Program-made: the position numbers and the translations under genes
In this document: in pieces, positions 8,196 through 56,884 of the stretch
Numbering within the stretch: the stretch's first letter is position 1
Layout of the letters: each line of letters begins with the position of its first letter
Assembly: GCF_000802965.1 (NCBI RefSeq)
Contig: NZ_JSAK01000002.1
Span: forward strand, 62,001-126,000
DNA from: Pseudomonas fluorescens
GTDB taxonomy: Bacteria; Pseudomonadota; Gammaproteobacteria; Pseudomonadales; Pseudomonadaceae
Length of the DNA stretch: 64,000 nt
Direction: 5' to 3'
Notes under the pieces: model-generated
What the model was told of the DNA's origin: nothing
The model's database searches: none
What the model saw: the letters and a program-made list of their open reading frames with translations, nothing else

Positions 8196-8304
8196 GAGGC
8201 TCAGTATCCTGAGGCGGCAGACCAGAGCCTGCCAATCACCTCAGGGTAGAGGGTTGGAGCGGATGTGGCGAGCGGGATGCCCCATCCCGGACGATGAACG
8301 CACC

Positions 8305-8434
8305 CTTTTGTGGCGAGGGAGCTTGCTCCCGCTCGGCGGCGCAGCAGTCGTAAAACCTGCGAATTTTCTGTCACTGGAAAAAATGCGGGGGCCGCTTCGC
8401 GACCCAGCGGGAGCAAGCTCCCTCGCCACAAAAG
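8305..8434. repeat. REPIN: two inverted REP units
   Basis: The left arm TTTTGTGGCGAGGGAGCTTGC is repeated inverted on the right as GCAAGCTCCCTCGCCACAAAA, with about 85 bp between containing smaller inverted pieces. A further degenerate unit (GTGGCGAGCGGGATGCCCCATCCCG) lies just left at about 8264-8290. The repeat fills the space between dnaQ and the decarboxylase gene. It is the usual REPIN class of fluorescent pseudomonads and supports this part being core chromosome. Confidence 0.9.
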
Positions 8435-8443
8435 CGTGTGCTT

Positions 8444-10564: not shown

Positions 10565-12231
10565 CCAGCAGAGGATCTTCAATAAAAACACCCCCACTAT
10601 TTGATGTGGATACCAAGCGCACTGAACGTCCAGAGACGCAGGACGGAGTATTCTATTGGGATGGGGATACTCTTGTTTGTACGGGACAGCGCAGGTTCTT
10701 TATGGGCAAAGCACTTTCACTGCTGAACTCCTCCCTTAAATCTTCGTTCAAACAGAACATCATCTCATTTTTAACGAATGGCACTTATGGATCGCGTACT
10801 TGCGTAAGCATAACTGGGTCGCTTCTTACAAGTCTGAATGCATACCCTACCCGATCCTTTAACACTTCCTGGTTAGCAAAGGCATTAACACACTCGTCGT
10901 TCCTAAGAAGTAAAAAGGCTATAACACTTTTTTTTCTCCATTGGAAGGAGCACGACAGCAAGGTGATCAGCCAGAACGCTTTAAAATTACTGGATGATAC
11001 TGCACCCTTTCGCGCAGGGCCGGGCAATGTACTTTCCGACGACCCGAATAAAAGCTGGCTCACCAACAATGAATATGACAGCTTGCTAAGAGCCATCTGG
11101 TATAACTACGACTGCAACACTGTCGGCACCCAAGCCACGCTCATGCGACTGCTGTCGATGCAATATGCAAGAAGACCCCTACAGTTTGCACACCTCAAGG
11201 TCGGTGACATATTTGACAACGACGGATCGGATATCTTTGCCCCTACAGGAAAAGTAATTAGCTTTCCTGGCGTTAAAGATCAGGGGGCCGAAATAGATTT
11301 TCGTGACAGCAAATTTGAATATCACGTTCTCGCGGATCACCTATGGAATTTATGCTTAGTTCAACGGCAAGAAATAAAAGAACTTTTTGAATACATGATA
11401 GGCTTCTCACTCACGAACGACCAACTACTCAACCTCCCATTTTTTTGCAGCGAATTACGGATCAAACAGGCTTTAGAGATCTTTGCAGACAAGCAACATA
11501 GTAACCTTATCGACAATTTAGACAACGCACTTTTTCACCTAAAAAAAATGCAGATCATTAATATTCTCTGCTGGAGAACTAACAGCCCTACTACCGACTA
11601 TGGCGCAGCGAATCAAAAATTATCAACGTCGCGACCCCCTATCAGTCCACGCACAGGCCATACAATAATTATCAATGCTACGCGAATGCGTCATACACGG
11701 GCGCGACAACTCGCCCGAATGGGGATACCCAAATACATGCTTTCCCACTGGCTTGGTCATACGTCGGAGATGTCGTTGGCTGCCTATTACAACGATCCCG
11801 CGGAACAAGCGCGTCAACTCGATAAAGCAATGCAACCGGCACTTGCACCACTTGCAATGGCTTTTGCAGGAACCTTGATCGACTCTGAAGATCAGGCAAC
11901 AAGGGCCAGCGACCAGACAAGCAAATTAGAATTCGTTCACCAAGGAGAACTGAAAAGCGTTGGCCATTGCGGCAAATACAGTTTCTGCGCAACGACCTCA
12001 GTGCCAATCCCCTGTTACCGATGCAAATTCTTCGAACCTTTGGTAAATGCTCCACACTCCGAAGTATTGTTTGCTCTTGAGCGGCGGCAAGCTGCGGAGG
12101 AACAAGTGTTAAAAATTGGCAGTCCACGGAACCTGTTAATCCCCATTGATCTTTCAGCAGACATTCGAGCTGTCAAAAATTGCATTGAGCACTGCAATGC
12201 GCGCAATGCCAAAAATGAGATAAATCCATGA
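10561..12231 (+). CDS. tyrosine recombinase-like protein B of the trio
   Basis: A 556-residue protein whose middle matches the tyrosine recombinase catalytic domain: an Arg in ARRPLQFAHLKVGD (about 205), the box TRMRH (374-378), WLGH (His 400) and Tyr 409/410 in AAYYND. The first His of the HxxR box is replaced by Thr, so activity may be weakened or the protein may be structural. The C-terminal 100 residues carry Cys pairs (CGKYSFC, CYRC, CIEHC) that could bind zinc. It is coupled to its neighbours by 4-bp ATGA overlaps at both ends. Confidence 0.8.
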   Translation: MTSRGSSIKTPPLFDVDTKRTERPETQDGVFYWDGDTLVCTGQRRFFMGKALSLLNSSLKSSFKQNIISFLTNGTYGSRTCVSITGSLLTSLNAYPTRSFNTSWLAKALTHSSFLRSKKAITLFFLHWKEHDSKVISQNALKLLDDTAPFRAGPGNVLSDDPNKSWLTNNEYDSLLRAIWYNYDCNTVGTQATLMRLLSMQYARRPLQFAHLKVGDIFDNDGSDIFAPTGKVISFPGVKDQGAEIDFRDSKFEYHVLADHLWNLCLVQRQEIKELFEYMIGFSLTNDQLLNLPFFCSELRIKQALEIFADKQHSNLIDNLDNALFHLKKMQIINILCWRTNSPTTDYGAANQKLSTSRPPISPRTGHTIIINATRMRHTRARQLARMGIPKYMLSHWLGHTSEMSLAAYYNDPAEQARQLDKAMQPALAPLAMAFAGTLIDSEDQATRASDQTSKLEFVHQGELKSVGHCGKYSFCATTSVPIPCYRCKFFEPLVNAPHSEVLFALERRQAAEEQVLKIGSPRNLLIPIDLSADIRAVKNCIEHCNARNAKNEINP

Positions 12232-40499: not shown

Positions 40500-41705
40500 T
40501 CAATCAGACAACTGGGCAGTCTGAGTTCTATTGCCGAGATATTGCTCGATCCGCGCCACTGCTTCAGCCAGTCGCTCAATGCTAGTGGTATATGAAAAGC
40601 GGACGTATCGCTCCGGCTCATTCGCACCAAAATCCAGACCCGGTGCAATAGCTACCGACGCCTGCTCAAGTAAGGTCATTGCGAAATCAAAACTGTTGTC
40701 CGTGAATGCGGAACTGTCAGCGTAGATGTAGAACGCGCCTTCAGGCTTGGCTACAACTCGAAATCCTATCCTTGTCAGTTCGGCCGACAGGTAGTCCCGA
40801 CGGCGCTTGAACTCCATCCGCCGCGTCTCGATTAAATCCAGGGTTGCGGGCTCAAAAGCGGCCAGCGCTGCGTACTGAGCCGGTGCGGAGGGGGAAAGAA
40901 ACAGATTTTGGGCAAGTTTTTCAATATGCCGGGTGAATTCTTCCGGCACCACAAGCCAACCCAAACGCCAGCCTGTCATCTGAAAGTACTTGGAGAAACT
41001 TTGTACGATCCACACATCGTCACAGCATTGCAGCGCGGTGGACGTCTCATGGTCGTAGGTCAAACCCTGGTAAATCTCGTCGAGTATGAAATGCCCGCCT
41101 TTCTCACGGATACAATCTGCGAACGTTTTGATCTGATCCAGACTGAGCATTGTGCCTGTCGGATTGGCCGGAGAAGCAAGTAGCACCCCGGCAGTGGCTT
41201 CGCTCCAGTTTTCTTCGATATCCGCAAGCATTGGCTGGAAATTGCTTTCTTCGCCTACAGGGATTGACTTCGGTACGCCCTCAAAGATACGAACAAAATT
41301 GCGATTGCAAGGATAGCCAGGATCCGTCAACAGCCATTCTTTGCCCGGTTCTGCCAGGCAGGCCAATGCGAGCAGCAATCCGCCCGAGGCTCCAGCCGTC
41401 ACAATAACGCGCGACGCAGGGACTGTTACGCCATATCGACTCTGGTAGTAATCAGCAATCGCCTCTCGCAGCTCAGGGATACCAAGTGCGGGAGTGTACG
41501 TAGTTTTGCCATTGGCAATGGCAGCCTGGGCGGCGGCGATGATAGCTGGCGGTGTAGCAAAGTCAGGCTCACCGACTTCCATGTGCACTATATCCAGCCC
41601 TTCTGCTTCGAGTCGTTTCGCTCGCGTCAGGATGTCAATGACGTGAAAGGGGGCGACATCGTTCATGCGCGTAGCAACGAGCTGTTGTTCAATAGATGAT
41701 TTCAC
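40500..41705 (-). CDS. PLP-dependent aminotransferase class I/II
   Basis: A 401-residue fold-type-I aminotransferase. The GEPDFATP substrate segment, the cofactor Asp in FILDEIYQGL, the Schiff-base Lys in SFSKYFQMTGWRLGW and the carboxylate-binding Arg near VRFSYTTS are all present. It belongs to the aspartate/aromatic aminotransferase AAT-Igamma-like group. It lies 178 bp downstream of the IOR-type gene on the same strand. The pair would link an amino acid, its 2-oxo acid and the corresponding acyl-CoA. Confidence 0.92.
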   Translation of the reverse strand: MKSSIEQQLVATRMNDVAPFHVIDILTRAKRLEAEGLDIVHMEVGEPDFATPPAIIAAAQAAIANGKTTYTPALGIPELREAIADYYQSRYGVTVPASRVIVTAGASGGLLLALACLAEPGKEWLLTDPGYPCNRNFVRIFEGVPKSIPVGEESNFQPMLADIEENWSEATAGVLLASPANPTGTMLSLDQIKTFADCIREKGGHFILDEIYQGLTYDHETSTALQCCDDVWIVQSFSKYFQMTGWRLGWLVVPEEFTRHIEKLAQNLFLSPSAPAQYAALAAFEPATLDLIETRRMEFKRRRDYLSAELTRIGFRVVAKPEGAFYIYADSSAFTDNSFDFAMTLLEQASVAIAPGLDFGANEPERYVRFSYTTSIERLAEAVARIEQYLGNRTQTAQLSD

Positions 41706-41882
41706 ACTTTATCCTCCGTAGAGATAGGTCGGGTGCAGGGCAGACTTTCAGTCTGAGCCTGCACCCAATGCTGACGCCCTCCACTTTCACCAAGCACTTG
41801 CTGCTCAACGATTTGGTGGTCACCAAGCGTCTGCAGGGTCATTCGGAAAAAGTAGAAACGGCAGCTTCTGGACGCCTAGCGT

Positions 41883-44800
41883 TCAGGCCACTTTTTTCAG
41901 TGCGATCACACGGCCTCGCACGACATCCAACAACACGGCTTCACGTTGAGTTGCCAGCTCCATGGCCTTGGCCCTGACATGGCCGTAACCGCGGATCTGT
42001 TCAGGCAACGACGCAAGTTCAACCATCGTGTCGTAATGAGAAGAACTTCTGCCCTCTTCCAGCACCGACAGGATTTCGGCAATCACCGCTTCGTAACGTT
42101 GAATCAACGCGCGCTCCTGGCGCCGTTCGGCGGTGTAACCGAATACATCCAGCGGCGTACCTCGCAATCTCCGCAGTTTGGCAAGCACGCGGAAAACCGG
42201 GACGATCCATGGTCCAAACTCGGTTTTCTTCGGAAGTCCAGTGTCTGGATCGCGACGGGCCAGGAGCGGCGGTGCAAGGTTGAATACCAGCTTGTAGTCA
42301 CCCTCAAACTGCTGGGAAACACGATCAAGAAAACCGCTTTCGACATGAAGACGGGCAACCTCGTACTCGTCTTTGATCGCCAACAGTTTGAAGTAGTACC
42401 TTGCCACTGCTTGTGTCAGGTCAGTACGCCCTGCAAACAGCTTTTGCTCGATCCTGCGTACACGCTCCAACAAGTCGGTGTAGCGTTGCGCATAGGCGGA
42501 ATTTTGGTACTCCACCAAGAACTTGCGCCGCGTTTCGATCACTTCGTCATCGGACTTCACAGGAGCAGGCGACACACCTGCGCGCTGCGTTGTTTGTTTC
42601 GCGGCGAGCAATTGCTCCACGGCTTTTGGGTTTACAGCGGCCTGACGTCCCCAGCGGAACGCTTCCGTGTTCATTTGTTTGGCGGCACCATTCAGATCAA
42701 TAGCCGATTCAATGGATGTCGCGCAGAGCGGTATCAGTCCGCGCTGATAGGCAAAACCGAGCATGAACATATTGGCTGCAATACTGTCACCGAGCAGCGC
42801 GGTGGCTATACGTCCCGCATCAACAAACTCGGTGTGTTCCTGCCCTACTGCGTCGACGATATTCCGGCGAAGATCATCTGCGGGGTATTGCAGATCCGCG
42901 TTACGAGTAAATGCCCCAGGCATTGTTTCCTGAGTGTTGGCCAGTATGAAGGTATTGCCGTGACGCGTTGCTGCCAGAGTTTTGGAGTTGCCCGCAACAA
43001 TCAAGTCGCAACCCAGGACCAGATCCGCGCCCCCCGCTGCAATGCGGATGGTCTTGATCGATTGTGGATCTGGTCCGAAGCGCAAATGGCTCCATACCGA
43101 ACCACCCTTCTGAGCCAGACCGGCCATGTCGAGCAAACCGCAACCTCGACCTTCGAGGTGAGCCGCCATTCCCAGAATGGCTCCAATAGTGACGACGCCC
43201 GTGCCGCCCATCCCAGCCACTAGAATGCTATAGACCCGATCGTCGATGCTCGGGCGAACCGGTTCTGGTAGCAGTGGTGCGGCCTGACCTTGCGTTGCGC
43301 GCTCGGGCTTGCTCAGGCTCCCCCCGACCACACTGACAAAGCTGGGGCAGAAACCGTTGACGCATGAAAAGTCTTTATTGCAGGAAGATTGGTCGATCGT
43401 CCGTTTGCGACCGAATTCCGTCTCCAGCGGCTGCACCGATACGCAATTGGATTTCACGCCGCAATCTCCGCACCCTTCGCACACCAAATCATTGATGACG
43501 ATTCGTTTGGCTGGATCAGGAAAGGTTCCGCGCTTACGCCGGCGCCGTTTCTCAGCGGCGCAGGTTTGGTCGTAGATTAGAACCGAAGTCCCTTCCACTT
43601 CTCGTATTTCACGCTGGACCTTGTCCAATGTATCCCTGTGATGGAACGTCACACCCGCCGGCCAGGCTGTGTCCAGGGGATACTTGTGTGGCTCGTCGCT
43701 CACCACGACAATCCGCTTCACGCCCTCAGCACTCACTTGGTGGGCAATGGCTGGAACATTCAGCGTACCGTCATGCTTTTGCCCTCCCGTCATCGCGACA
43801 GCATCGTTGAACAATATTTTGAAAGTAATGTTTGTGCCGGCTGCCACCGCGGCCCGGATGCCTAGATAACCCGAATGGAAATAGGTGCCATCGCCGATGT
43901 TCTGGAACATGTGTTTGCGCTTGGAAAAAGGCGCCTCCCCTACCCAAACCATTCCTTCGCCGCCCATGTGGGTATAACCCAACGTTGAGCGCTCCATCGA
44001 CTGCGCCATCCAATGGCACCCAATACCGGCGTAGCCCTTGCTGCCTTCTGGCAGCACCGTAGAGGAGCTGTGAGGGCAACCACTGCAAAAATAATAGCTA
44101 CGTGCCAAAAGTGCGGTATCACCCTTGACCACCTGGTAAGAGCGCAACTCTTCAATGCGTTTGCGCAGACTGACATTGTCCCCCAGCTCAAGGAGGCGCT
44201 CGCCTAGCGCAATGCCTATCTGGTTCGAATCCAGCGCCATTTCCGACTGGAACATCGTTTGGCCTGCTTCATCTTGTTTACCGACAATGACTGGAGCATT
44301 TGCGCGACCGTAAAACTGCTCTTTCAGTTGGAACTCGATCAGACTCCTTTTTTCCTCCACCACCAATATCTTGTCGAGCCCCTCTGAAAAGTGTGCCGCA
44401 CCTTCAGGTTCGAGTGGCCAAACCATCCCGACTTTGTAGATACGCAAGCCCATCTCGGCGGCGGCTTTTTCGCTGAGGTTGAGATCATCCAAAGCCTGCA
44501 AGACATCCAGATAGCTCTTGCCATGGGTAATGATCCCCAACTTGGCAGCCGGTGCACCAAGGACAATTCGATCAAGTGCGTTGTGACGGGCGAAAGCACG
44601 AACCGCATTCAATTTGTAGCGGTGTAAACGGGCCTCTTGTGCGTGCGGGGTGTCAGGCTGACGAATGCTGAGCCCATCTGGCGGCAGTGCGAAATCCTGA
44701 GGAATCTGAATTTTCACGCGATTGATGTCGACATCAATGGTGGCCGTAGCCTCCACCGTGTCCTTGACACACTTCATCCCGACCCAGCAGCCACTGTAAC

Positions 44801-45374
44801 GAGACAATGCCCATCCGATCAGGCCAAAGTCGAGAATTTCCTGGACACCAGCTGGGCTGAGCACCGGAATCATGGCGTCCACCATTGCGAATTCGCTTTG
44901 GTGGCATGTGCTTGAGGACTCGCAGGTATGGTCATCGCCCATCAACACGAGAACCCCACCGAGATTTGCCGTACCGGCGAGATTGGCATGCCGAAACGCG
45001 TCACCGGTGCGATCAACGCCAGGACCTTTGCCGTACCACATGCCGAAAACGCCGTCGTATTTACCTTCGCCGCTCAGGTGCGCTTGTTGTGCGCCCCAGA
45101 TTGTGGTCGCTGCGAGGTCTTCATTGACGCCAGGAACAAAAAGGGTGTGATGCTGCTCGAGGTGTTTTTTGGCTTTACCAAGCTGGTCATCAAGTCCGCC
45201 AAGGGGCGATCCGCGATAACCGGATATGTAGCCAGCGGTGTTGTGGCCAAGTTGTTGATCTCTCTGCCGCTGCGTCATGGACAGGCGGACAAGGGCTTGA
45301 GTCCCGGTAATGAAAATACGCCCTTGAGTAAGGGTGTATTTGTCGTCGAGCTGGACGGTCTTCAGGTTCATCAT
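41883..45374 (-). CDS. indolepyruvate ferredoxin oxidoreductase family protein (fused alpha/beta subunits)
   Basis: A 1163-residue 2-oxo acid oxidoreductase that combines the TPP-dependent alpha part with the gamma/beta part. Order: a pyrimidine/TPP domain (residues of about 1-600, HMGGEGMVWVGEAPFS), a 4Fe-4S site (CEGCGDCGVKSNC, then CNKDFSCVNGFCPSF near 690), a gamma domain (GMGGTGVVTIGAILGMAAHLEGRG) and a C-terminal DUF6537-type region. It oxidatively decarboxylates an aryl- or branched 2-oxo acid to acyl-CoA in the cytoplasm. The GGAG lies 4 nt before the first and 7 nt before a second in-frame ATG (45371), so either may be used. Confidence 0.93.
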   Translation of the reverse strand: MMNLKTVQLDDKYTLTQGRIFITGTQALVRLSMTQRQRDQQLGHNTAGYISGYRGSPLGGLDDQLGKAKKHLEQHHTLFVPGVNEDLAATTIWGAQQAHLSGEGKYDGVFGMWYGKGPGVDRTGDAFRHANLAGTANLGGVLVLMGDDHTCESSSTCHQSEFAMVDAMIPVLSPAGVQEILDFGLIGWALSRYSGCWVGMKCVKDTVEATATIDVDINRVKIQIPQDFALPPDGLSIRQPDTPHAQEARLHRYKLNAVRAFARHNALDRIVLGAPAAKLGIITHGKSYLDVLQALDDLNLSEKAAAEMGLRIYKVGMVWPLEPEGAAHFSEGLDKILVVEEKRSLIEFQLKEQFYGRANAPVIVGKQDEAGQTMFQSEMALDSNQIGIALGERLLELGDNVSLRKRIEELRSYQVVKGDTALLARSYYFCSGCPHSSSTVLPEGSKGYAGIGCHWMAQSMERSTLGYTHMGGEGMVWVGEAPFSKRKHMFQNIGDGTYFHSGYLGIRAAVAAGTNITFKILFNDAVAMTGGQKHDGTLNVPAIAHQVSAEGVKRIVVVSDEPHKYPLDTAWPAGVTFHHRDTLDKVQREIREVEGTSVLIYDQTCAAEKRRRRKRGTFPDPAKRIVINDLVCEGCGDCGVKSNCVSVQPLETEFGRKRTIDQSSCNKDFSCVNGFCPSFVSVVGGSLSKPERATQGQAAPLLPEPVRPSIDDRVYSILVAGMGGTGVVTIGAILGMAAHLEGRGCGLLDMAGLAQKGGSVWSHLRFGPDPQSIKTIRIAAGGADLVLGCDLIVAGNSKTLAATRHGNTFILANTQETMPGAFTRNADLQYPADDLRRNIVDAVGQEHTEFVDAGRIATALLGDSIAANMFMLGFAYQRGLIPLCATSIESAIDLNGAAKQMNTEAFRWGRQAAVNPKAVEQLLAAKQTTQRAGVSPAPVKSDDEVIETRRKFLVEYQNSAYAQRYTDLLERVRRIEQKLFAGRTDLTQAVARYYFKLLAIKDEYEVARLHVESGFLDRVSQQFEGDYKLVFNLAPPLLARRDPDTGLPKKTEFGPWIVPVFRVLAKLRRLRGTPLDVFGYTAERRQERALIQRYEAVIAEILSVLEEGRSSSHYDTMVELASLPEQIRGYGHVRAKAMELATQREAVLLDVVRGRVIALKKVA

Positions 45375-45572: not shown

Positions 45573-46079
45573 TCAAGGGCGGACGGCAGAAACTTCTATT
45601 TCCACGAGAAACCCAGGGTTCGCCAGACCAGACACCTGGAAGACCGATCGGGTCGGCAGATTTTTTTGAGCTCCCGCACCGAAAAACTGTGTGTAGCCTT
45701 TCATGAAACCTGCATAGTCCATCTCGCCGTCATTACTTGCTGTGCCAACCAAATACACTTGCATCTTCACTACGTCGCCGAGTGAAAGACCTAGCCTTTT
45801 CAAAGTATTCTCGATACTTCTGAGCGTGCTGACAGTCTGTGCCTCGGTATCACCGTAGGCAGCAATGCTTTTTGGATCGGCCTTACTGTCAATTATGGAT
45901 GGAACGGCTCCACTGAGATTAACAAGTGTCGCGCTAGCAGGAATTTCGACAGCCAAGGAAATAGGGAAGTCGGAGTTTGGAATTTTGTGGCGAATTACCG
46001 AGTCAGCGCTCGCATGGGTGGACAACAGCCCACTCAGCATCGAGACAAGGAATATAGTGCGTGCGTTTATTGTCGACAT
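45573..46079 (-). CDS. RidA family deaminase with N-terminal signal peptide
   Basis: A 168-residue protein, with a Sec signal peptide of about 24 residues (TIFLVSMLSGLLSTHASA) in front of a full RidA domain. The catalytic Arg is in PTRSVFQVSGL and the Glu in FLVEIEVSAV, matching R105 and E120 of the canonical enzyme, so imine deaminase activity is plausible. Most RidA proteins are cytoplasmic; export to the periplasm is notable. The start at 46079 follows AAAAGGATC. It is 56 bp downstream of the cytochrome c gene and probably in the same operon. Confidence 0.9.
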   Translation of the reverse strand: MSTINARTIFLVSMLSGLLSTHASADSVIRHKIPNSDFPISLAVEIPASATLVNLSGAVPSIIDSKADPKSIAAYGDTEAQTVSTLRSIENTLKRLGLSLGDVVKMQVYLVGTASNDGEMDYAGFMKGYTQFFGAGAQKNLPTRSVFQVSGLANPGFLVEIEVSAVRP

Positions 46080-46135
46080 CAAATGATCCTTTTGCGTGTA
46101 AACAATTGGGGCGGCGTAGCTCACCCTCACTATGA

Positions 46136-46531
46136 TCAGCGTTGGCTTACAGTTCGGACATCTTCAACCGTGACGGTGTCAGAATAGTTATTTCCAAAGT
46201 GAGTGCGTACATAGTCGACCACCCATGCTATTTGTTGGTCAGACATGTATTTTTTGAATCCTGGCATGCCGCCCTGCCCAGACGTCACCATGTAAATGGG
46301 GTATATCTTTGCTCCCAGCTTTACGTTTGATGCTAAAGCGGGATAAGCCCCTGCCCCGTGCGAACCCTGGGCTTCGGACATATGGCAGCCCTGACAAACT
46401 TGTTGAAACAGCGCTTCACCACTTGTCTGATCAAACGAACCTGAAGTTGAGACCTGAATGGTGTCAGCGGCCAAAGCGGATGCACTGGCCAGCAAGCTCA
46501 GCAACAAGCCCGTTGCAAGAAAGTTGTGCAT
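46136..46531 (-). CDS. periplasmic monohaem cytochrome c
   Basis: A 131-residue class I cytochrome c with a signal peptide (1-22, ending SALA-A). The haem site is C46-QG-CH (His 50) and the axial Met is in GGMPGF (M89). GGAG 8 nt before the ATG at 46531 fixes the start; an upstream in-frame extension reads into the oxidase gene. It lies 14 bp after the flavoprotein stop, so it is the likely electron acceptor of that enzyme and would feed the respiratory chain. Confidence 0.93.
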   Translation of the reverse strand: MHNFLATGLLLSLLASASALAADTIQVSTSGSFDQTSGEALFQQVCQGCHMSEAQGSHGAGAYPALASNVKLGAKIYPIYMVTSGQGGMPGFKKYMSDQQIAWVVDYVRTHFGNNYSDTVTVEDVRTVSQR

Positions 46532-46545
46532 GATGAACTCCGGTC

Positions 46546-48150
46546 TCAAGCAGCCTTCGGGCTGGCGACAATGTGGGTGTGCAAGCGTTTGATGGCATCC
46601 AGCGACGATAGGATTGCACCCTCCATCCACGCCGGGATGTAGGAGGCATGCTCGCCGGCCAGGACAATTCGGCCGTCAATCTGGCAGAGGTTTTTGTAGT
46701 GCTGCTGACGAGACTCCTCAGTCCACAAACCATAGCAGCCGTTGGTCCAGGGCACCCGGTGCCAACCAACTGCAATGCCATTCTCGAATTCGCTGGTGTA
46801 CTGGGGGTGGACTTGGGCGCCGTACTCGACGGCTTTCTGCACGCGCATTTCCGGTTTCATCGCGGTGAATTCATAGGCATTCGGTCCGAACAGGTATCCT
46901 CCCAACAAAACACCCTTCCCCGGCTTGCCGTAGTCGGTACTTGGGTAGCTGATCCTACCGATAGGGGTATCGGTGTAGCTGATGCCACCATAGATATGCT
47001 CGTCCTGCTCCCAGAAGCGCCGCTTGAACTGGAGTCCAACTTTCACAGAGGCTTCGTAAGGCACAGCACGGATAGCGTTCATCATGGGTGGGCTGACATC
47101 GATCGGCAGTTGACCGAGGATCGACAAAGGTAGTGTGCAGACGCACCAGTCCGCGGTTTCCTGTAACGGACCGCCAGTGCCATCAGTATTCTGATAAGTC
47201 ACTGTGACCCGTTTGTCACCCTGCTGAATTCGAGTGATTTTGGCGTTGTAACGAATGAGATCGCCTACCTGCTTTTCGAAGGCTCGAGCGATCATGTCCA
47301 TCCCTCCCACAGGCTGGAAGATGCTGGTCTGAAATTCGTATTCCTGACCCGTTGCAATGCTTTTCCAGAGATTGGAATCGAGCAGGGCCTTACGATCCAG
47401 TGGCTCTGATGGCACCGCTTCAGGCATCAATCCGCCGCCTACGTCTACTGCGAATCCTCGACGCAGACTCGTCTCGAGCGACTTGCGATAGCTGCTGTTA
47501 GCGTCCAGTGCACCCCAACTACTCATAACCTCCAGCAAGCGCTCTCGATCTTCTCGAGTCAGGGCCTGATCCAGAGCATTCTGATTGACCGCCTTGCTCA
47601 GCAACTCAGCCACATGGCCTTGAAAGTCTGCCTGCACTTCACGATAACGTTGTGGTTTACCGCCGAACGCTTTAGTGGAGTGAACCATGGCGTTGTAGTT
47701 GACTTGAACAAATGGCTCAAGAGCGACGCCGAACTGATGGCAGTAATCAAGCACTGCGTGGTGGTGGTAGGGAATTCGCCATGGGCCAGGGTTCAGGTAT
47801 AACCCTTTATCAAACTGGCAATGCTGAGTAGCCCCTCCCAACTCAGTGAATCGATCGCCTCCACGCAATGTCCAGCAACGACCACCAGGCTTTGCATTAA
47901 ATTCAAGAACCTTGACTTTGTAACCCGCTTTACGAAGCTCGAAAGCTGCGGTCATTCCTGCAAGTCCTGCACCTAGAACCAATACATTGGTCCCCATAGG
48001 TGCACCGCTTAATGCAAATGTGCGGTCGTAGTTTGACTCTGCTGCGAAACTCAGCGAATTCATTGCCTGATACATGGCCGCAGCGCCTGCGGTTACACCG
48101 ATCCAGTTCAGTACTTGGCGTCGAGTTAAAGCCATTCCGTGTTCTTGCAT
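46546..48150 (-). CDS. Tat-exported flavin amine/L-amino-acid oxidase
   Basis: A 534-residue FAD enzyme of the amine oxidase family. The N-terminus has a twin-arginine signal (TRRQVLNWIGVTAGAAA), then the FAD-binding VLVLGAGLAGM with Glu 83, and GGRCWTLRGG. The segment LNPGPWRIPYHHHAVLDY matches the GPMRLP of L-amino-acid oxidases, whose Arg (here R125) binds the substrate carboxylate. This favours an amino-acid substrate over a simple amine. The C-terminal AGEHASYIPAWMEGAI closes the flavin site. GAGG supports the ATG at 48150. It lies in one operon with a cytochrome c and a RidA. Confidence 0.93.
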   Translation of the reverse strand: MQEHGMALTRRQVLNWIGVTAGAAAMYQAMNSLSFAAESNYDRTFALSGAPMGTNVLVLGAGLAGMTAAFELRKAGYKVKVLEFNAKPGGRCWTLRGGDRFTELGGATQHCQFDKGLYLNPGPWRIPYHHHAVLDYCHQFGVALEPFVQVNYNAMVHSTKAFGGKPQRYREVQADFQGHVAELLSKAVNQNALDQALTREDRERLLEVMSSWGALDANSSYRKSLETSLRRGFAVDVGGGLMPEAVPSEPLDRKALLDSNLWKSIATGQEYEFQTSIFQPVGGMDMIARAFEKQVGDLIRYNAKITRIQQGDKRVTVTYQNTDGTGGPLQETADWCVCTLPLSILGQLPIDVSPPMMNAIRAVPYEASVKVGLQFKRRFWEQDEHIYGGISYTDTPIGRISYPSTDYGKPGKGVLLGGYLFGPNAYEFTAMKPEMRVQKAVEYGAQVHPQYTSEFENGIAVGWHRVPWTNGCYGLWTEESRQQHYKNLCQIDGRIVLAGEHASYIPAWMEGAILSSLDAIKRLHTHIVASPKAA

Positions 48151-48763: not shown

Positions 48764-49789
48764 TTAGATCGGTGCGTTGCCCGGGCGCCTATACGCCCCT
48801 GGTGTACTGCCTGTCCAGCCACGAAACGCGCGGTGAAACACGGCGTTGGAGTCAAAACCCAAACCCAGCGCGATATGGCTGATAGAGAGATCGGTGTGAA
48901 TGAGCTGCTGCACGGCGATATCCCGACGCAACGCATCCTTGACCAACTGGTAACTAGTGCCCTCCTCTTTGAGTCGACGCGTTAGCGTACGGGTGGACAG
49001 CAACAATGCATTGGCTGCGCTTTGGATGCTGTCGTCACGCTTGAGGTTCGTGAGCAAATACTGACGAACCTGCTGCGCCACCAGGCGCTCCTTCAAGGTG
49101 GTGAACAGCCAGTAGCGCGGAGCTGCCTGCAGGAACGGCAGCAGCTCCGCCTTGCTGCGGCGAAACTGCGTCTCTGCCCACTCCACACCAAAGCACAACG
49201 CCGTACAGGGCTGATCAAAGCTGATCGGCGCGGGAAATATATGCATGTATTCCGAGGCGTACACAGGCTTGGCAAAGGAGAACATCACACTATGAAGCGG
49301 AATTTCCTGGCCAGCCAACCACGAAGCGACTCCATGGGCCAGCTTCATCATCAGCTCATGCCCCCAGCGTTGTGCGTTGGCAGTGGTGTCGCGCGCCTCC
49401 AAGGAAATCACCACCTGCCCCGACTGTTCTCTGTAGTCGAGCTGATAGTCATCGAGCAGCAAGTTCCAGAATCGAGTGAAGCGGTACATGGCTTTACCCA
49501 AGGAGCTTGCATCAAGCAGGCTCGAGCACAGGTATTTCAGGGTGCCACTGCGAATACGACGGGAGAATTGCCCCATCACCTCGTCATCCGTACCCAATGC
49601 CACCTGCTGATACAAGCGCACGAACTGATCGTAAGTCACCCGTGCGCCTGGCGCCTCCAGCAAGTGGGTTGCAATGCCCGCTGCACTGACGAAAGTCTGA
49701 ATGTCAGCAGCACTGCTGATGTTCAACGCCCCTTGTAAAAGCCCCTGAACGAAGGTCATGGGCAGCGTGTTGTCCACTGAATGATCCAC
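48764..49789 (-). CDS. mmsR: AraC family regulator, MmsR-like (Arabinose_bd/OruR type)
   Basis: A 341-residue regulator with an N-terminal ligand-binding domain of the OruR/ArgR-like (Arabinose_bd) type and a C-terminal AraC domain (SIQSAANALLLSTRTLTRRLKEEGTSYQLVKDALR and ISHIALGLGFDSNAVFHRAFRGWTGSTP). The GTG at 49789 is 8 nt after AGAGGAG; an upstream GTG at 49810 lacks this. It is divergent from mmsA, as MmsR, the activator of mmsAB, is in P. aeruginosa. The symbol is assigned by that synteny and should be read as MmsR-like. Confidence 0.8.
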   Translation of the reverse strand: MDHSVDNTLPMTFVQGLLQGALNISSAADIQTFVSAAGIATHLLEAPGARVTYDQFVRLYQQVALGTDDEVMGQFSRRIRSGTLKYLCSSLLDASSLGKAMYRFTRFWNLLLDDYQLDYREQSGQVVISLEARDTTANAQRWGHELMMKLAHGVASWLAGQEIPLHSVMFSFAKPVYASEYMHIFPAPISFDQPCTALCFGVEWAETQFRRSKAELLPFLQAAPRYWLFTTLKERLVAQQVRQYLLTNLKRDDSIQSAANALLLSTRTLTRRLKEEGTSYQLVKDALRRDIAVQQLIHTDLSISHIALGLGFDSNAVFHRAFRGWTGSTPGAYRRPGNAPI

Positions 49790-49818
49790 CTTCTTCGCTC
49801 CTCTGACCACAACTGAAC

Positions 49819-49891: not shown

Positions 49892-50101
49892 TATCGCGAA
49901 TCAAAGCAACCTTGATCGAAAGACGGCTTGAACCAACCCTCAAAAAAAATGGCCGTTAATGCAAGTCAATGGAGGCCGCAGCGCCTTTGTTCAGCCTTCG
50001 TCAGATCAAGAAAAGCACTCAGATATTGCCACCCACCAGGCACCGGCAAACCGACTATCCCACCTGATAACAAGGGCCTCATCGCCCCGGAAGAGAAAAC
50101 A

Positions 50102-51610
50102 ATGGCTGATAATAGCGTCCCAACCGTAAAGCTCCTGATCAACGGCAAGCTGGTCGAATCCAAAACCACTCAATGGCGTGATGTGGTCAATCCGGCTACC
50201 CAGGAAGTGTTGGCCCGAGTGCCATTTGCCACCACCGACGAAATGAACGCCGCCGTGGCCAGCGCCAAGGAAGCGTTCAAGACATGGCGCAAAACGCCAA
50301 TCGGAGCCCGCTCCCGAGTGTTCCTCAAGTATCAGCAGTTGATCCGCGAAAACATGAAGGAACTGGCGGCGATTCTCACGGCGGAACAAGGCAAAACACT
50401 GCCGGATGCAGAGGGGGATGTGTTCCGCGGCCTAGAAGTGGTCGAACATGCCGCCAGCATCGGCAACCTGCAGCTGGGTGAACTGGCCAATAACGTGGCC
50501 GGCGGTGTGGATACCTACACCTTGCTGCAACCGTTGGGCGTCTGCGCAGGTATTACCCCATTCAATTTCCCCGCGATGATCCCGCTGTGGATGTTCCCAA
50601 TGGCCATCGCTACCGGTAATACCTTCGTCCTAAAACCGTCCGAGCAGGATCCAATGGTCACGATGCGCCTGGCAGAACTGGCGATCGAAGCCGGCGTTCC
50701 ACCAGGCGTACTCAACGTGATTCACGGTGGTGTGGAAGCAGTCAATTTGATCTGCGATCACCCCGATATCAAGGCCGTTTCCTTTGTCGGTTCGACCAAG
50801 GTCGGTACACACGTTTACAACCGCGCCACGTTCAATGGCAAACGTGCACAGTGCATGATGGGCGCGAAGAACCACGCAATCGTCCTGCCTGATGCAAATA
50901 AGCAGCAGACGCTGAACAATTTGCTTGGCGCTGCATTTGGTGCGGCCGGCCAACGCTGCATGGCCTTGCCTGTTGTGATCCTGGTCGGCGAAGCACAGAG
51001 CTGGCTGCCAGATCTCATCGAAAAAACTAAAAGCCTGAAGGTCAGTGGCGGCGCCGAGCCTGGCACAGATATTGGCCCGGTAGTGTCCTGTTCGGCACTG
51101 GATCGAATCAGCAGCCTGATCGCCACTGGCGTTGAACAGGGCGCAACACTTGTGCTGGATGGCCGCAATCCAGAGGTTGCAGGCTATTCCCAAGGGAACT
51201 TTATCGGCCCGACCATCTTTTCCGACGTCACCACAGATATGGCCATCTACCGAGAGGAAATCTTCGGTCCGGTGCTCTGTGTATTGCATGCCGATACCCT
51301 AAATGACGCCATCGAGCTGATCAATGCCAACCCAAATGGTAACGGCACTGCACTCTTCACCCGCTCAGGCGCGGCTGCCCGACATTTCCAAGAAGAAATT
51401 GATGTCGGTCAGGTTGGGATCAACGTACCGATCCCGGTTCCAGTCCCACTGTTTTCCTTCAGTGGCTCACGTGCGTCCAAGCTCGGCGACTTGGGCCCGT
51501 ACGGCAAGCAAGTGGTGCAGTTCTATACCCAGACCAAGACCATTACCGAACGCTGGTTCGATGAAGACGAGGTCAGCGGCCCAGTGAACACCACCATCAC
51601 TCTGAAATGA
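50102..51610 (+). CDS. mmsA: CoA-acylating methylmalonate-semialdehyde dehydrogenase
   Basis: A 502-residue aldehyde dehydrogenase. [16 protein letters not shown] and the NAD-binding FVGSTKVG precede the nucleophile Cys in [11 protein letters not shown], followed by EEIFGPVL. It converts methylmalonate semialdehyde to propionyl-CoA, the last step of valine breakdown, using NAD and CoA. GGAAGAG before the ATG at 50102 supports this start; the frame extends further upstream through the promoter region, which is not translated sense. It is first gene of the mms operon. Confidence 0.95.
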
Positions 51611-51616
51611 AGCACT

Positions 51617-51643
51617 AGGCCGGCGCCCTTTCCGCGCCGGCCT
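51617..51643 (+). other. hairpin between mmsA and the hydratase gene
   Basis: A 10-bp perfect stem AGGCCGGCGC/GCGCCGGCCT with a 7-nt loop starts 7 bp after the mmsA stop. No T run follows and the operon clearly continues. It is likely an mRNA processing or stability element that sets different levels of mmsA and the distal genes. Confidence 0.5.
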
Positions 51644-51661
51644 GGTCGGGGAGCCTGCGTC

Positions 51662-52435
51662 ATGCAATTCGAAACTCTGTTGTTGGAAATCCACGAGCGC
51701 GTGGGTCTGATCACCCTGAATCGGCCTAAATCACTTAATGCCATCAATAGTCAGGTGATCGCCGAGCTGAACCAAGCCTTGGACCATTTGGAAAAAGACC
51801 CGTCAATCGGCTGCATGGTCATTACAGGGTCCGCCAAAGCTTTCGCCGCGGGGGCGGATATTAAGGAGATGGTGGAATTCACCTATCCCCAGGTGTTCCT
51901 TGATGATTTCTTCTCTGCTGCCGACCGTATCGCCAGCCGACGCAAGCCGTTGATTGCTGCTGTCGCCGGTTATGCCTTGGGGGGCGGTTGCGAACTGGCA
52001 CTGATGTGCGACTTCATCTACGCCGCCGACAACGTCCGGTTCGGTCTGCCGGAAATCACATTGGGTGTGCTTCCAGGAATCGGTGGCACTCAACGTCTTG
52101 CCCGCGCAGTGGGCAAGGCCAAAGCCATGGAAATGTGCATGAGCGGTCGCCAAATGGGCGCCGAAGAGGCCGAACGGTCTGGCCTAGTCGCCCGCATTAT
52201 CCCAGTCGACAGCCTGCTGGACGAAACCCTCAAGACCGCCAGCGCGATTGCTGAGCGGTCGCTGCCGGCGACCATGCTGGTGAAGGAAAGCGTGAACCGG
52301 GCCTTCGAGTCCAGCTTGAGCGAAGGTGTGCGCTTTGAACGTCGGGTATTCCACTCAATTTTCGCCACAGCCGATCAGAAGGAAGGCATGGCAGCCTTCG
52401 TCGAAAAACGTCCAGCACAGTTCAAGCACTGCTGA
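51662..52435 (+). CDS. enoyl-CoA hydratase (methacrylyl-CoA/crotonase type)
   Basis: A 257-residue crotonase-fold enzyme. [17 protein letters not shown] and [20 protein letters not shown] form the oxyanion hole, with catalytic Glu residues in GGGCELAL and [11 protein letters not shown]. It would hydrate methacrylyl-CoA to 3-hydroxyisobutyryl-CoA in this pathway. A GGGGAG ribosome binding site lies at good spacing. It lies between mmsA and mmsB, co-directional. Confidence 0.93.
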
Positions 52436-52461
52436 CATCCGCCTATTCACAAGGAATAACC

Positions 52462-53352
52462 ATGAAAATTGGCTTCGTAGGACTCGGCAACATGGGCGGG
52501 CCAATGGCTCTGAACCTGATCAAAGCCGGTCATGTAGTAACCGTGTTCGACTTGTCGGCTGCCTCATTGGCGCGCCTGGTTGAGGCAGGGGCAACGGCCG
52601 CGGAATCGCCAGCTGCCATCGCCCAAGGCGACGTAGAGCTGATCATCACCATGCTGCCCGCTGCTGCACATGTGAAATCCGTTTACCTGGGCGCCGAAGG
52701 CATTTTGGCTCATGTCCGCCCCGAGGTTTATCTCGTCGATTGCTCGACTATAGATCCACGCACTGCTCGAGAAGTGGCCAAGCAGGCGTTGGAAAATGGC
52801 AATCCAATGGTCGACGCACCTGTCTCCGGCGGCACCGGGGGTGCCAGTGCCGGGACATTGACCTTTATGGTGGGTGGTTCAAACGCTGATTTCGACCGTA
52901 CTTGGCCGATTCTGGCGGCGATGGGCAAGAACATTGTGCACTGCGGCGATTCCGGCAACGGCCAAGTCGCCAAGGTTGCCAACAACATGCTGCTCGGTAT
53001 CTCGATGATTGCAGTTTCCGAGGCCATGGCGCTTGGCGTTTCTCTGGGGATGGACGCTGGTGTGTTGGCCGGCATCATCAATACCTCCAGCGGGCGTTGC
53101 TGGAGTTCGGACACCTACAACCCTTTCCCTGGTGTGCTTGAAAATGCACCTGCGTCTCGTGGATACACCGGCGGCTTTGGCACCGACCTGATGCTCAAAG
53201 ACTTGGGGCTTGCAAGCGAAGCGGCACAACAAATAGGCCAGCCGGTCCTCCTTGGCGCGTTTGCCCAGCAGCTCTATCAAAGCTTCAGCGCACAAGGCAA
53301 TGGCAGTCTGGACTTCTCCGCAATTATTAACACGTACCGCAAGGACGCCTGA
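52462..53352 (+). CDS. mmsB: 3-hydroxyisobutyrate dehydrogenase
   Basis: A 296-residue beta-hydroxyacid dehydrogenase. The NAD site is GFVGLGNMGGPMALNLIKAGH at the N-terminus. The substrate loop is DAPVSGGTGGASAGTLTFMVGG, and the catalytic Lys is in GNGQVAKVANNMLLG. It oxidises 3-hydroxyisobutyrate to methylmalonate semialdehyde with NAD and so feeds MmsA. AAGGAATAACC precedes the ATG. The next gene begins 2 bp after its stop. Confidence 0.95.
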   Translation: MKIGFVGLGNMGGPMALNLIKAGHVVTVFDLSAASLARLVEAGATAAESPAAIAQGDVELIITMLPAAAHVKSVYLGAEGILAHVRPEVYLVDCSTIDPRTAREVAKQALENGNPMVDAPVSGGTGGASAGTLTFMVGGSNADFDRTWPILAAMGKNIVHCGDSGNGQVAKVANNMLLGISMIAVSEAMALGVSLGMDAGVLAGIINTSSGRCWSSDTYNPFPGVLENAPASRGYTGGFGTDLMLKDLGLASEAAQQIGQPVLLGAFAQQLYQSFSAQGNGSLDFSAIINTYRKDA

Positions 53353-53354
53353 AC

Positions 53355-54449
53355 ATGAGCGATGTCGAAGCGCCCGTTCTGGCTGCCGTACGCAACCGCA
53401 TCGGCCACCTGACACTGAATCGTCCAAGCGGCCTCAATGCATTGACGCTTCCCATGGTTCGCCTGCTCCAGCAGCAGCTGCGGTCCTGGGATCAGGACCC
53501 TGAAGTAGTTGCCGTGGTACTGCGTGCAGCGGGAGAGAAAGCATTTTGCGCCGGCGGAGACATCCGCATGCTTTACGAAAGCCATAAGTCAGGCAACGGT
53601 CTGCATGAGCTTTTCCTCGAAGAGGAATATGCGCTCGACGAATACATCCATAACTACTCAAAGCCTCTTTTGGCCTTAATCGATGGTTTGGTTCTTGGAG
53701 GGGGCATGGGGTTGGTGCAGGGGGCAACCCTGCGGGTTATCACCGAACGCACGCGCATGGGCATGCCCGAGGTGGGTATTGGATTTTTCCCCGACGTCGC
53801 TGCCAGCTATTTTCTGCCACGTTTGCCTGGTGAGTTGGGGATTTATCTGGGGGTCACCGGAATCCAGATACGCGCCGCCGATGCCCTTTACGCAGGCCTG
53901 GCCGACTGGTGTATCACTAGTTCTCAAATACCCGAACTCGATCATTGTCTCAACAACATGAGTTGGACAGACAATCCACTACCGGCCTTACAAGCACTAC
54001 TGGCTACATTGGGCGTCAACAAGTTCCCTGGCTCGGAGCTCAGGGCGATGCAGCCCGCCATCGATCGGCACTTCGCCGAGCCTGATGTTGCCTCGATTCG
54101 TGCGGCACTCCTGGCAGAAACCTCCCCCCAATACCTGGACTGGGCTGAGGAAACCGTTGATGTACTGGACAGTCGCTCTCCCCTGGCGATGGCCGTCACT
54201 CTAGAGCTGCTGCGTCGTGGTCGGCATTTGTCCCTTAGCGAATGTTTTGCCCAAGAACTCCATCTGGATTACCAGTGGTTCGACAAAGGCGATCTGATAG
54301 AAGGCGTTCGTGCCCTGATCATCGACAAGGACAAGAACCCGGTCTGGAATCCGCCGACCTTGGCCGAGCTTGATCCGGCACGGGTAGAAGCCTTTTTCAG
54401 TGACTTTAAGTCCACTACCTGCGCGCCACAGCGGCTTGTCACTGTTTAA
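53355..54449 (+). CDS. 3-hydroxyisobutyryl-CoA hydrolase
   Basis: A 364-residue crotonase-superfamily hydrolase, longer than hydratases because of the C-terminal helical domain. AFCAGGDIRMLYES and DGLVLGGGMGLVQGA form the oxyanion site, and MPEVGIGFFPDVAASYFL carries the catalytic Glu and Asp of the HIBCH family. It releases 3-hydroxyisobutyrate, the MmsB substrate. It is 2 bp after mmsB, so translation is probably coupled. Confidence 0.93.
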   Translation: MSDVEAPVLAAVRNRIGHLTLNRPSGLNALTLPMVRLLQQQLRSWDQDPEVVAVVLRAAGEKAFCAGGDIRMLYESHKSGNGLHELFLEEEYALDEYIHNYSKPLLALIDGLVLGGGMGLVQGATLRVITERTRMGMPEVGIGFFPDVAASYFLPRLPGELGIYLGVTGIQIRAADALYAGLADWCITSSQIPELDHCLNNMSWTDNPLPALQALLATLGVNKFPGSELRAMQPAIDRHFAEPDVASIRAALLAETSPQYLDWAEETVDVLDSRSPLAMAVTLELLRRGRHLSLSECFAQELHLDYQWFDKGDLIEGVRALIIDKDKNPVWNPPTLAELDPARVEAFFSDFKSTTCAPQRLVTV

Positions 54450-54472
54450 CCCCTTAATAAGAGAGATGCCCG

Positions 54473-55624
54473 ATGCACGACCTCGAATTGACTGAAGAGC
54501 AGCGAATGATTCGCGACATGTCCCGCGACTTTGCCCGTCGTGAGATCGCGCCCAAAGCCGTACACATGGAGAAAGCCGGCTGGATCGACGACGCTCTGGT
54601 GAAGCAGATGGGCGAACTTGGTCTGCTGGGAATGGTGGTCCCTGAAGAATGGGGTGGCACTTACATCGACTACGTAGCCTATGCCCTGGCCGTGGAGGAG
54701 ATTTCGGCCGGCGATGGTGCCGTCGGTGCACTGATGAGTATTCACAACTCTGTCGGTTGTGGTCCGATTCTGAAGTTCGGCACGCAGGCACAAAAGGATT
54801 TCTGGCTGGCGGATCTGGCTAGCGGGCAAGCAATCGGCTGCTTCTGTCTAACCGAACCGCAAGCAGGATCAGAAGCGCACAACCTGCGAACACGTGCAGA
54901 ACTGCGCGACGGCCAATGGGTGCTCAACGGCGCAAAGCAGTTCGTGAGTAACGGTAAGCGCGCCAAGCTGGCCATCGTCTTTGCAGTGACCGATCCGGAG
55001 CTCGGCAAGAAAGGTTTGTCGGCGTTCCTGGTACCCACCGACACACCAGGCTTCACGGTCGACCGAAGTGAACACAAGATGGGCATTCGCGCTTCAGATA
55101 CCTGCGCGGTCACCTTAAACGATTGTCGAATTTCCGAAGGCAACTTGTTGGGAGTACGTGGAAAAGGTCTATCGATCGCCCTCTCCAACCTCGAAGGGGG
55201 GCGCATTGGGATCGCAGCTCAGGCGCTCGGTATTGCACGTGCTGCGTTTGAAGCAGCATTGAATTATTCACGTGACCGGGTGCAGTTTGGTAAGCCGATA
55301 TACGAACACCAAAGCATCGCCAACATGCTAGCTGACATGCACATGCAGCTTAACGCTGCACGCCTCATGACCCTGCATGCAGCACGACTGAAAAGCGCCG
55401 GCCACCCATGTTTGTCAGAGGCCTCGCAGGCAAAGTTGTTCGCATCAGAGATCGCTGAACGGGTGTGCTCAAACGCCGTACAGATTCATGGTGGCTATGG
55501 GTATCTGGAGGACTATCCGGTAGAGCGCTATTACCGGGATGCCCGCATTACCCAAATTTATGAAGGTTCTAGCGAAATTCAGCGGCTACTGATTGCTCGC
55601 GAACTGGCGCACTACACGATCTAA
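54473..55624 (+). CDS. acyl-CoA dehydrogenase (isobutyryl-CoA dehydrogenase type)
   Basis: A 383-residue FAD acyl-CoA dehydrogenase. [11 protein letters not shown] forms the flavin/substrate loop. [33 protein letters not shown] is the C-terminal signature, with the catalytic Glu in IYEGS. In this context it would oxidise isobutyryl-CoA to methacrylyl-CoA. It is preceded by AAGAGAGATG and follows the hydrolase gene by 23 bp. Confidence 0.93.
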
Positions 55625-55699
55625 AAGTCTCGATGCACGCGGGAGCCGGCACACGGTTGAGCTCACTCGGATCTTCACCTAACAAGAACGGAGCCCACA

Positions 55700-56884
55700 A
55701 TGGCCCTAGCAGAAGTTTTTTTCGTAGGTACGGCACGGACTGCCATCGGTAGCTTCGGCGGAGCCTTAAAGGATATTCCCCTGGGCGATCTGGCCACCGC
55801 TGCAGTCAAAGGAGCCCTCACCCACGCAGGCATCGACGGCCAACAGGTTGATCATGTGGTGATGGGTAACGTGATCCCAACAGCGCCTCGGGACGCCTAC
55901 CTGTCAAGAGTTGCAGCAATCGGGGCAGGTATTCCGAAGGAAACGCCAGCGTTCAATGTTAACCGCTTGTGCGGCTCCGGCTTGCAAGCAATCGTTTCTG
56001 GCGCGCAGGGCATCCTGCTCGGCGATTTTGGGGTTGCCGTAGCGGGTGGCGCAGAATCCATGAGTCGCGGACCTTACCTCATTCCAGGGCTGCGCTGGGG
56101 TAGTCGGCTGGGTGACAGTCAGGCCGTGGATTACATGAATGGGATTCTTCACGACCCTTGGAAAAGATCCCACATGGGTATTACTGCTGAAAACATTGCC
56201 GAACGATATGGCATTTCACGCGAAATGCAGGATCAGTTGGCGCTTCAGAGCCAACATCGGGCTGCACACGCCATCGCAGAGGGCCGCTTCAAGACGCAAA
56301 TCGTGCCAGTGGAAGTGCAGGTGAAGAGAAGGACTGTGCTGTTTGATACAGACGAAAACGTACGCCACGACATCGACATCGAACAACTGACCAGGATGCA
56401 TCCAGTCTTCCAACAGGGTGGTACTGTGACCGCCGGCAACGCGTCCAGTCTCAACGATGGAGCAGCAGCCCTCGTTCTCGCTGATGCTAATGCAATCAAG
56501 CAACACAACCTTAAGCCGATTGCCCGTCTTGTAGCCTATGCGCATGCCGGCGTTGATCCGGATTACATGGGTATTGGTCCCGTACCTGCCACTCGCATGG
56601 TACTGAAGCGTGCTGGACTCAGCATTCAAGACATTGATGTCATAGAGTCAAACGAGGCTTTTGCAGCGCAGGCTTTGGCCGTGGCTCAACAGCTAGAGTT
56701 CGACCCAGCGAGGGTCAACCCCAATGGTTCCGGTATTTCACTCGGACATCCGGTTGGTGCCACGGGGACAATCATTACGATCAAGGCTATTCATGAGCTG
56801 CACCGCACAGGCGGACGGTATGCGCTGATAACGATGTGCATTGGCGGCGGACAAGGCATTGCAGCCATTATTGAACGGGTTTAA
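55700..56884 (+). CDS. acetyl-CoA C-acetyltransferase (thiolase)
   Basis: A 394-residue thiolase. The nucleophile Cys is in NRLCGSGLQAIVSGAQ, the second site is NPNGSGISLGHPVGATG with its His, and the C-terminal Cys is in TMCIGGGQG. It cleaves or forms 3-oxoacyl-CoA in the cytoplasm. It is not needed for the linear valine route to propionyl-CoA, so the operon may also handle another branched or short-chain acid. AAGAACGGAG precedes the ATG. Confidence 0.93.
   Translation: MALAEVFFVGTARTAIGSFGGALKDIPLGDLATAAVKGALTHAGIDGQQVDHVVMGNVIPTAPRDAYLSRVAAIGAGIPKETPAFNVNRLCGSGLQAIVSGAQGILLGDFGVAVAGGAESMSRGPYLIPGLRWGSRLGDSQAVDYMNGILHDPWKRSHMGITAENIAERYGISREMQDQLALQSQHRAAHAIAEGRFKTQIVPVEVQVKRRTVLFDTDENVRHDIDIEQLTRMHPVFQQGGTVTAGNASSLNDGAAALVLADANAIKQHNLKPIARLVAYAHAGVDPDYMGIGPVPATRMVLKRAGLSIQDIDVIESNEAFAAQALAVAQQLEFDPARVNPNGSGISLGHPVGATGTIITIKAIHELHRTGGRYALITMCIGGGQGIAAIIERV

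Follow-up and report, generated by a model that had tools for sequence, protein, structure and literature searches.

The locus analysed here has its closest described counterpart in the lao-cccA-ridA cluster (GDI2456-2454) of the sugarcane bacterium Gluconacetobacter diazotrophicus, which has been characterised genetically (PMC5053998). In two Tn5 mutants of lao, indolic compounds fell by about 96%, IAA was not detectable and tryptophan was left unused (PMC5053998). In one lao mutant all three genes were shown to be expressed less, which means that this insertion does not separate the roles of lao, cccA and ridA; the authors propose that the cytochrome and RidA assist the L-amino-acid oxidase (LAAO), and they cite ccm mutants that make 5% of the IAA (Lee et al., 2004, as reported in PMC5053998). 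Kinetic work has in turn characterised Tat-exported flavoprotein amine oxidoreductases whose genes adjoin one for a cytochrome c; those of clades 2 and 3 are dehydrogenases, and a Tat signal together with an adjacent cytochrome c is described as a good predictor of dehydrogenase function (PMC12224317). The adjacent cytochromes of clade 1 react only slowly (990, 290 and 2,700 per M per s; PMC12224317), and adjacency is therefore no proof. In the NicA2/Pnao-CycN systems, as in our locus, a Tat flavoprotein of the amine oxidase superfamily shares an operon with a Sec-exported cytochrome c acceptor and both are predicted to be periplasmic, but RidA goes unmentioned in the main texts on NicA2/Pnao-type enzymes (PMC12224317, PMC9396064). 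Chlamydomonas LAO1/LAO2 (RIDA) resembles our locus in combining a periplasmic LAAO, which deaminates tryptophan and other amino acids, with a RidA partner; LAO1 is, however, eukaryotic and described as peroxide-producing, and the passages describing it name no cytochrome partner (PMC10805672). Agrobacterium S33 Pno is likewise an amine-oxidising flavoenzyme whose Rid protein, Rid6, is proposed to clear the imine/enamine, but it acts in a nicotine pathway and passes its electrons to EtfAB (PMC7688666). A flavin monoamine oxidase is also named in PMC8567248, in passages that make no link to a lao-cccA-ridA-type operon. Searches of an open-access library, which misses most subscription journals, yielded nothing on an exported Rid subfamily and no kinetics for an LAAO with its cytochrome, and we know of no earlier "L-amino acid oxidases" that are really L-amino-acid:cytochrome c dehydrogenases.

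The window, by which we mean the whole stretch of 64,000 nucleotides that was analysed, contains adjacent genes for LAAO, cytochrome c and RidA, in that order, in reading frames that are open throughout, with a regulatory gene upstream:

46546 to 48150, minus strand: LAAO, an FAD-dependent L-amino-acid oxidase/dehydrogenase with a Tat signal (Pfam PF01593 Amino_oxidase, 1.6e-58)
46136 to 46531, minus strand: monoheme c-type cytochrome of 131 aa with a Sec signal (Pfam PF13442 Cytochrome_CBB3, 8.9e-13, scored on a longer GTG ORF)
45573 to 46079, minus strand: RidA-family protein of 168 aa with a Sec signal (Pfam PF01042 Ribonuc_L-PSP, 3.3e-15)
48764 to 49810, minus strand: AraC-type regulator in the same direction as the operon (Pfam PF12625 and HTH_18)

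The three families and their order are those of the G. diazotrophicus cluster, whose LAAO also bears a Tat signal; that cluster is tied by mutants to the conversion of tryptophan to indolepyruvate and IAA (PMC5053998). The comparison is with the published description of the cluster, in which export is predicted for the LAAO only (PMC5053998). In the related Gluconacetobacter asukensis, the LAAO is 55% identical to that of the window and RidA has a predicted signal. The initial annotation knew of no characterised system with all three parts exported; this view of the locus as unprecedented does not hold, given the genetic work on lao-cccA-ridA (PMC5053998) and the kinetic work on Tat amine dehydrogenases (PMC12224317). 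The three-gene set is already described in G. diazotrophicus, and what is added here is the comparative pattern.

The nearest solved sequence to the LAAO is that of the R. opacus LAAO (2jae, E 9.3e-90), and the enzyme lies nearest to LAAOs in general; of 101 PDB sequences, the best 60 include no chain named as NicA2 or Pnao. Its N terminus, MALTRRQVLNW, is of the Tat type with an RR motif, and R125 (R120 if numbering starts at MALTRR) falls in the alignment on the Arg of the 2jae sequence "TRIP". This Arg, which we take to be the carboxylate binder, is present in 87 of 89 aligned relatives, the other two having gaps; a Lys, K370 in the window and presumably a flavin-site residue, is kept in 89/89, and Tyr414 is invariant in a nine-row alignment. 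The window LAAO is thus an amine oxidase family member with the carboxylate Arg and flavin-site Lys of the R. opacus type. The cytochrome ORF as listed opens at a GTG (46136-46630) and overlaps the LAAO; the likelier start is the ATG at 46531, which leaves a gap of 14 nt from the LAAO stop and gives a protein with a Sec-type start, a single CXXCH (CQGCH at residue 46) and a Met further on. Its closest solved relatives are the relay cytochrome subunits of fructose and alcohol dehydrogenases. A Tat flavoprotein with an adjacent Sec-exported cytochrome c is also the arrangement by which cytochrome-c-using amine dehydrogenases are recognised in sequence. RidA likely starts at the ATG at 46079, 56 nt past the cytochrome stop, with a signal-like N terminus (MSTINARTIFLVSMLSGLLSTHASA), and it has the family Arg (Arg144) and an EIE motif, whose Arg and Glu are presumably the substrate-binding and catalytic residues of the family. 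Its score against the NCBIfam Rid model TIGR00004 is 36.7 bits, far under the cut-off of 106.25, which points to a diverged exported subfamily, and we therefore write "RidA-family" rather than canonical RidA; the closest solved chains to the exported RidA profile are, by chain title, the Rid proteins PSPTO3006 (9bka, E 9.4e-49) and PFL1385 (9bkc, E 8.5e-48). The initial annotation had described a Tat-signal flavoprotein with the LAAO-type Arg, a cytochrome c 14 bp downstream and a secreted RidA with catalytic Arg and Glu, and all three descriptions agree with these sequences.

The GC content of the three genes is 0.50-0.54, against a window mean of 0.54, and a promoter and terminator scan gave no excess over shuffles. 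The AraC-type gene is a possible regulator of the operon; it adjoins the operon in one of seven other loci examined in the genus, that of the 99% sibling G172.

The best reading of these genes is a periplasmic relay, whose functional steps are predicted. The operon probably encodes a respiratory L-amino-acid deamination system, in which the Tat-exported LAAO would reduce its FAD by oxidising a free periplasmic L-amino acid to the corresponding 2-imino acid. Electrons would then leave the LAAO in two one-electron steps; the Sec-exported cytochrome c encoded in the operon would accept them and pass them on to the respiratory chain. O2 would be at most a poor acceptor for the LAAO, so that little peroxide would form. 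The Sec-exported RidA would hydrolyse the released imino acid to the 2-oxo acid and ammonium. What is observed is the gene order, the predicted signals, the family membership, the conserved residues and the conserved partnership. The conserved Arg in LAAO and RidA, together with the G. diazotrophicus mutants, suggests an amino acid as the substrate class, the electron route is suggested by the adjoining cytochrome and by characterised enzymes of the NicA2/CycN type, and membership of the Rid family suggests the action of RidA. That the substrate may be tryptophan is a guess by analogy with G. diazotrophicus.

To find relatives, one genome from each species was scanned with a nine-sequence LAAO alignment, which gave at least 419 confirmed relatives among 594 stretches. 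In the best 80 loci of these, taking a cytochrome c within 1.5 kb and a RidA within 2.5 kb of the LAAO by domain coordinates, the cytochrome lies beside the LAAO in 66 and RidA nearby in 40 (both in 33, cytochrome only in 33, RidA only in seven, neither in seven); absence is weak evidence in L033, L057, L082 and L084, where the right flanks are only 277 to 1428 bases. All 66 adjoining cytochromes are on the same strand and downstream of the LAAO, each with a CXXCH and a later Met. RidA is downstream in 28 of the 33 relatives with both genes, just upstream in L055, L059, L061 and L081, and 2.3 kb upstream in L083. Fusions of LAAO with cytochrome or with RidA were absent among the ORFs of the best 80 loci. 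The three-part operon proposed initially is present in the window, but RidA is not a fixed part of it, since it is absent within 2.5 kb in 33 of the 66 cytochrome-bearing loci.

In a quick tree of 89 LAAO sequences, built without bootstrap, the window falls into a clade of 63 (SH-aLRT 100) in which the cytochrome is found in 62 and RidA in 30. Two Gluconacetobacter rows and one Komagataeibacter row belong to this clade, in a tree that does not include G. diazotrophicus. The lone cytochrome-less row is L071, in which the LAAO match ends at residue 406 of 529; this shortened match (8001-9218) has no cytochrome or RidA in its vicinity and resembles a copy in decay. Over 84 labelled rows, with the labels of the window, L002, L007 and L009 assigned by hand, the cytochrome pattern takes at least four changes and the RidA pattern at least 15. 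In L002, a CKTCH-bearing ORF between LAAO and RidA was missed by the cytochrome profile at 1e-3. A larger cytochrome of one family lies upstream of the LAAO in 7/80 loci, with three CXXCH motifs in both of those examined, the tri-heme cytochromes just upstream of the LAAO in L043 (6462-7880) and L066 (6494-7972), from Psychrobacter and Roseinatronobacter. L083 and L035 each carry two LAAO copies with cytochrome genes alongside, an apparent duplication of the module.

The same data bear on whether the LAAO is instead a true periplasmic oxidase, which would use O2 and release H2O2, the cytochrome removing peroxide or serving general respiration and RidA clearing the imine. Well-studied LAAOs are oxidases, the nearest solved relative is the R. 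opacus LAAO, and the Arg, Lys and Trp are all retained in cytochrome-less relatives; the flavin-site Lys, present in 89/89, gives no separation of the cytochrome-bearing from the cytochrome-less groups. Against this, the cytochrome is retained beside the LAAO in 62 of 63 clade members, and it is monoheme, unlike the bacterial cytochrome c peroxidases, which are di-heme; its solved relatives are relay subunits. H2O2 scavenging is named as one role of cytochromes c (PMC5053998), whereas the combination of a Tat signal and an adjacent cytochrome predicts dehydrogenases (PMC12224317). We consider a true oxidase unlikely and retain the transfer of electrons to the cytochrome as the preferred reading.

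The same electron route might serve another substrate, such as an unusual or plant-derived, a peptide-derived or a D-amino acid, in place of a free common L-amino acid. The pocket comparison covered the Arg and Trp, and the neighbours of the LAAO vary among loci, with an M20 peptidase in L024 (by Pfam), M20-like genes in L063 and L201 (by eye) and a TonB receptor family in 12/80 loci (Pfam on one). The nearest solved relatives, however, are L-amino acid oxidases, and tryptophan goes unused when lao is disrupted in G. diazotrophicus (PMC5053998). A different substrate is accordingly something we regard as possible though doubtful, and a free L-amino acid remains the preferred one. The M20-like hydrolase of L201 (5464-6891) has a signal-like start and a 3′ end that overlaps the LAAO start, which suggests that it releases amino acids for the oxidase. 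In L019, a class I/II aminotransferase gene (10566-11765, PRK09105 subfamily) near the LAAO encodes a Tat signal, read in this locus only; its sequence cluster is found in 6/80 loci.

Two genes downstream of the operon raise the question of a longer pathway:

41883 to 45374, minus strand: indolepyruvate:ferredoxin oxidoreductase, fused (1643 bits to the PRK13029 subfamily)
40500 to 41705, minus strand: aminotransferase beside the oxidoreductase, downstream of the operon

If operon and downstream genes formed one pathway, it would lead from an amino acid to an acyl-CoA. The strength of the PRK13029 match and the position of the oxidoreductase, on the same strand and about 200 bp downstream, fit such a pathway, but an export signal was not seen on the downstream enzymes, and we hold a joint pathway to be very improbable. 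As a member of the unit the oxidoreductase was rejected, since it adjoins the operon in 0/80 loci (flanks up to 8 kb); among seven other loci examined in the genus, the oxidoreductase/aminotransferase block (40500-45374) is beside the operon in one, that of the 99% sibling. A valine-degradation cluster (49928-56884) was also rejected as a partner, no LAAO match being found around its relatives in G021 and G001. Searches of the source genome for indolepyruvate decarboxylase gave six matches, of which none exceeded the cut-off; the 14 control genomes were alike in this, and there is hence no support for IAA production here.

Within the genus, we surveyed 398 genomes, including the source genome, for LAAO (E ≤1e-60, up to three candidates being scored in each genome) and for the exported RidA type, defined as a profile match at E ≤1e-20. 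LAAO was found in 107/398 genomes and exported-type RidA in 117/398, the latter in 107/107 LAAO genomes versus 10/291 others (Fisher p 4.8e-86, uncorrected for relatedness), and RidA lies within 3.5 kb of the LAAO in 108 of 110 LAAO places. Nine of these places, including that of the window, have an LAAO 62-100% identical to it, with the cytochrome in 9/9 and RidA in 8/9 (L114 being without RidA); the LAAO of L115 has stops. The other 101 places are at 32-38% identity. In 17/17 distinct loci of this group that were examined (L003 and L123 being one place), RidA is adjacent, with less than 200 nt between the two domains, which leaves no room for a cytochrome gene between them; in L006, a weak cytochrome match lies on the opposite strand, beyond RidA. 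Since LAAOs with RidA and without cytochrome exist, in 7/80 loci and in these 17/17, the family can use another acceptor. The pairs without a cytochrome gene (L003-L009 and L116-L126) provide a natural comparison for the electron acceptor, and some of them are near TonB-receptor-like or M19-dipeptidase-like genes (by eye).

Export was called by our own crude rule (a hydrophobic run and a small-x-small motif) and not by SignalP. Applied to the 41 adjacent RidAs (that of the window and those of 40 loci), this rule predicts a Sec-type signal in 40; the remaining one, from L082, has a possible lipoprotein start (by eye). The family Arg is present in 38/41. Among the nine Rid proteins of the source genome, the window RidA is the sole one with a predicted signal (0/8 for the others). 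For the Rid rows of seven other genomes, the rule was positive in 5/5 good matches to the exported profile (≥154 bits) and in 5/25 weak rows, and it therefore has false positives. A Tat-like RR is present in 72/80 LAAOs; among the remaining eight, L028, L035 and L042 have KR, the N terminus is missing in L069 and L077, and the rule leaves the Tat status of L032, L081 and L092 undecided.

RidA can also be encoded away from the LAAO. For 28 of the 33 cytochrome-bearing loci without a nearby RidA, the genomes were searched, and an exported-type RidA (≥120 bits) was found elsewhere in 18, with no match of ≥120 bits in the other 10, some of them incomplete; among ten comparison genomes with an adjacent RidA, a second such protein was found in one (G455). 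All 23 distinct unlinked RidAs above 130 bits fit the signal rule, compared with 0/7 weak Rids fetched alongside, and the alignment shows the Arg kept in 23/23. In the genus, 18 exported-type RidA places lie away from a counted LAAO, and 10 of these were examined. In four (L187 1457-3450, L188 2995-5094, L189 1447-3450 and L196 1459-3447), RidA directly follows a Tat-type flavoprotein that is not an LAAO. Pfam assigns the flavoproteins of L187 and L189 to the DAO family, and those of L188 and L196 are placed there by likeness; these pairs represent a second kind of exported oxidising enzyme with an exported RidA. In L191, RidA adjoins an LAAO split over two frames, and in L190 (1967-3456) it follows a 297-aa protein that has a signal and a penicillin-binding-protein transpeptidase domain, near the end of the contig. 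A partner enzyme was recognised in none of the remaining four of the 10 places.

Together, the counts for cytochrome (66/80), RidA (40/80), RidA signals (40/41) and co-occurrence in the genus (107/107) show a conserved partnership that is not due to chance. The new comparative pattern, as predicted from sequence, is that one LAAO clade almost always has the cytochrome, which is missing in others, and that RidA is nearly always of the exported type and movable. It could be that the exported Rid subfamily serves periplasmic amino-acid-oxidising flavoenzymes generally, whether LAAOs with or without a cytochrome or unrelated Tat DAO-family enzymes, and is still exported when its gene has moved, and that the cytochrome-bearing LAAO clade consists of L-amino-acid:cytochrome c dehydrogenases that respire amino acids without import; we judge the chances of this wider proposal to be evenly balanced.

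Because some close relatives carry the cytochrome gene and others lack it, experiments can address directly which electron acceptor is used. If the proposed relay is correct, some enzymes annotated as L-amino-acid oxidases would be cytochrome c dehydrogenases, and imine clearance would happen outside the cytoplasm too. Many Proteobacteria would then respire amino acids in the periplasm without prior uptake, and operons of this kind are relevant to auxin production in plant-associated bacteria.
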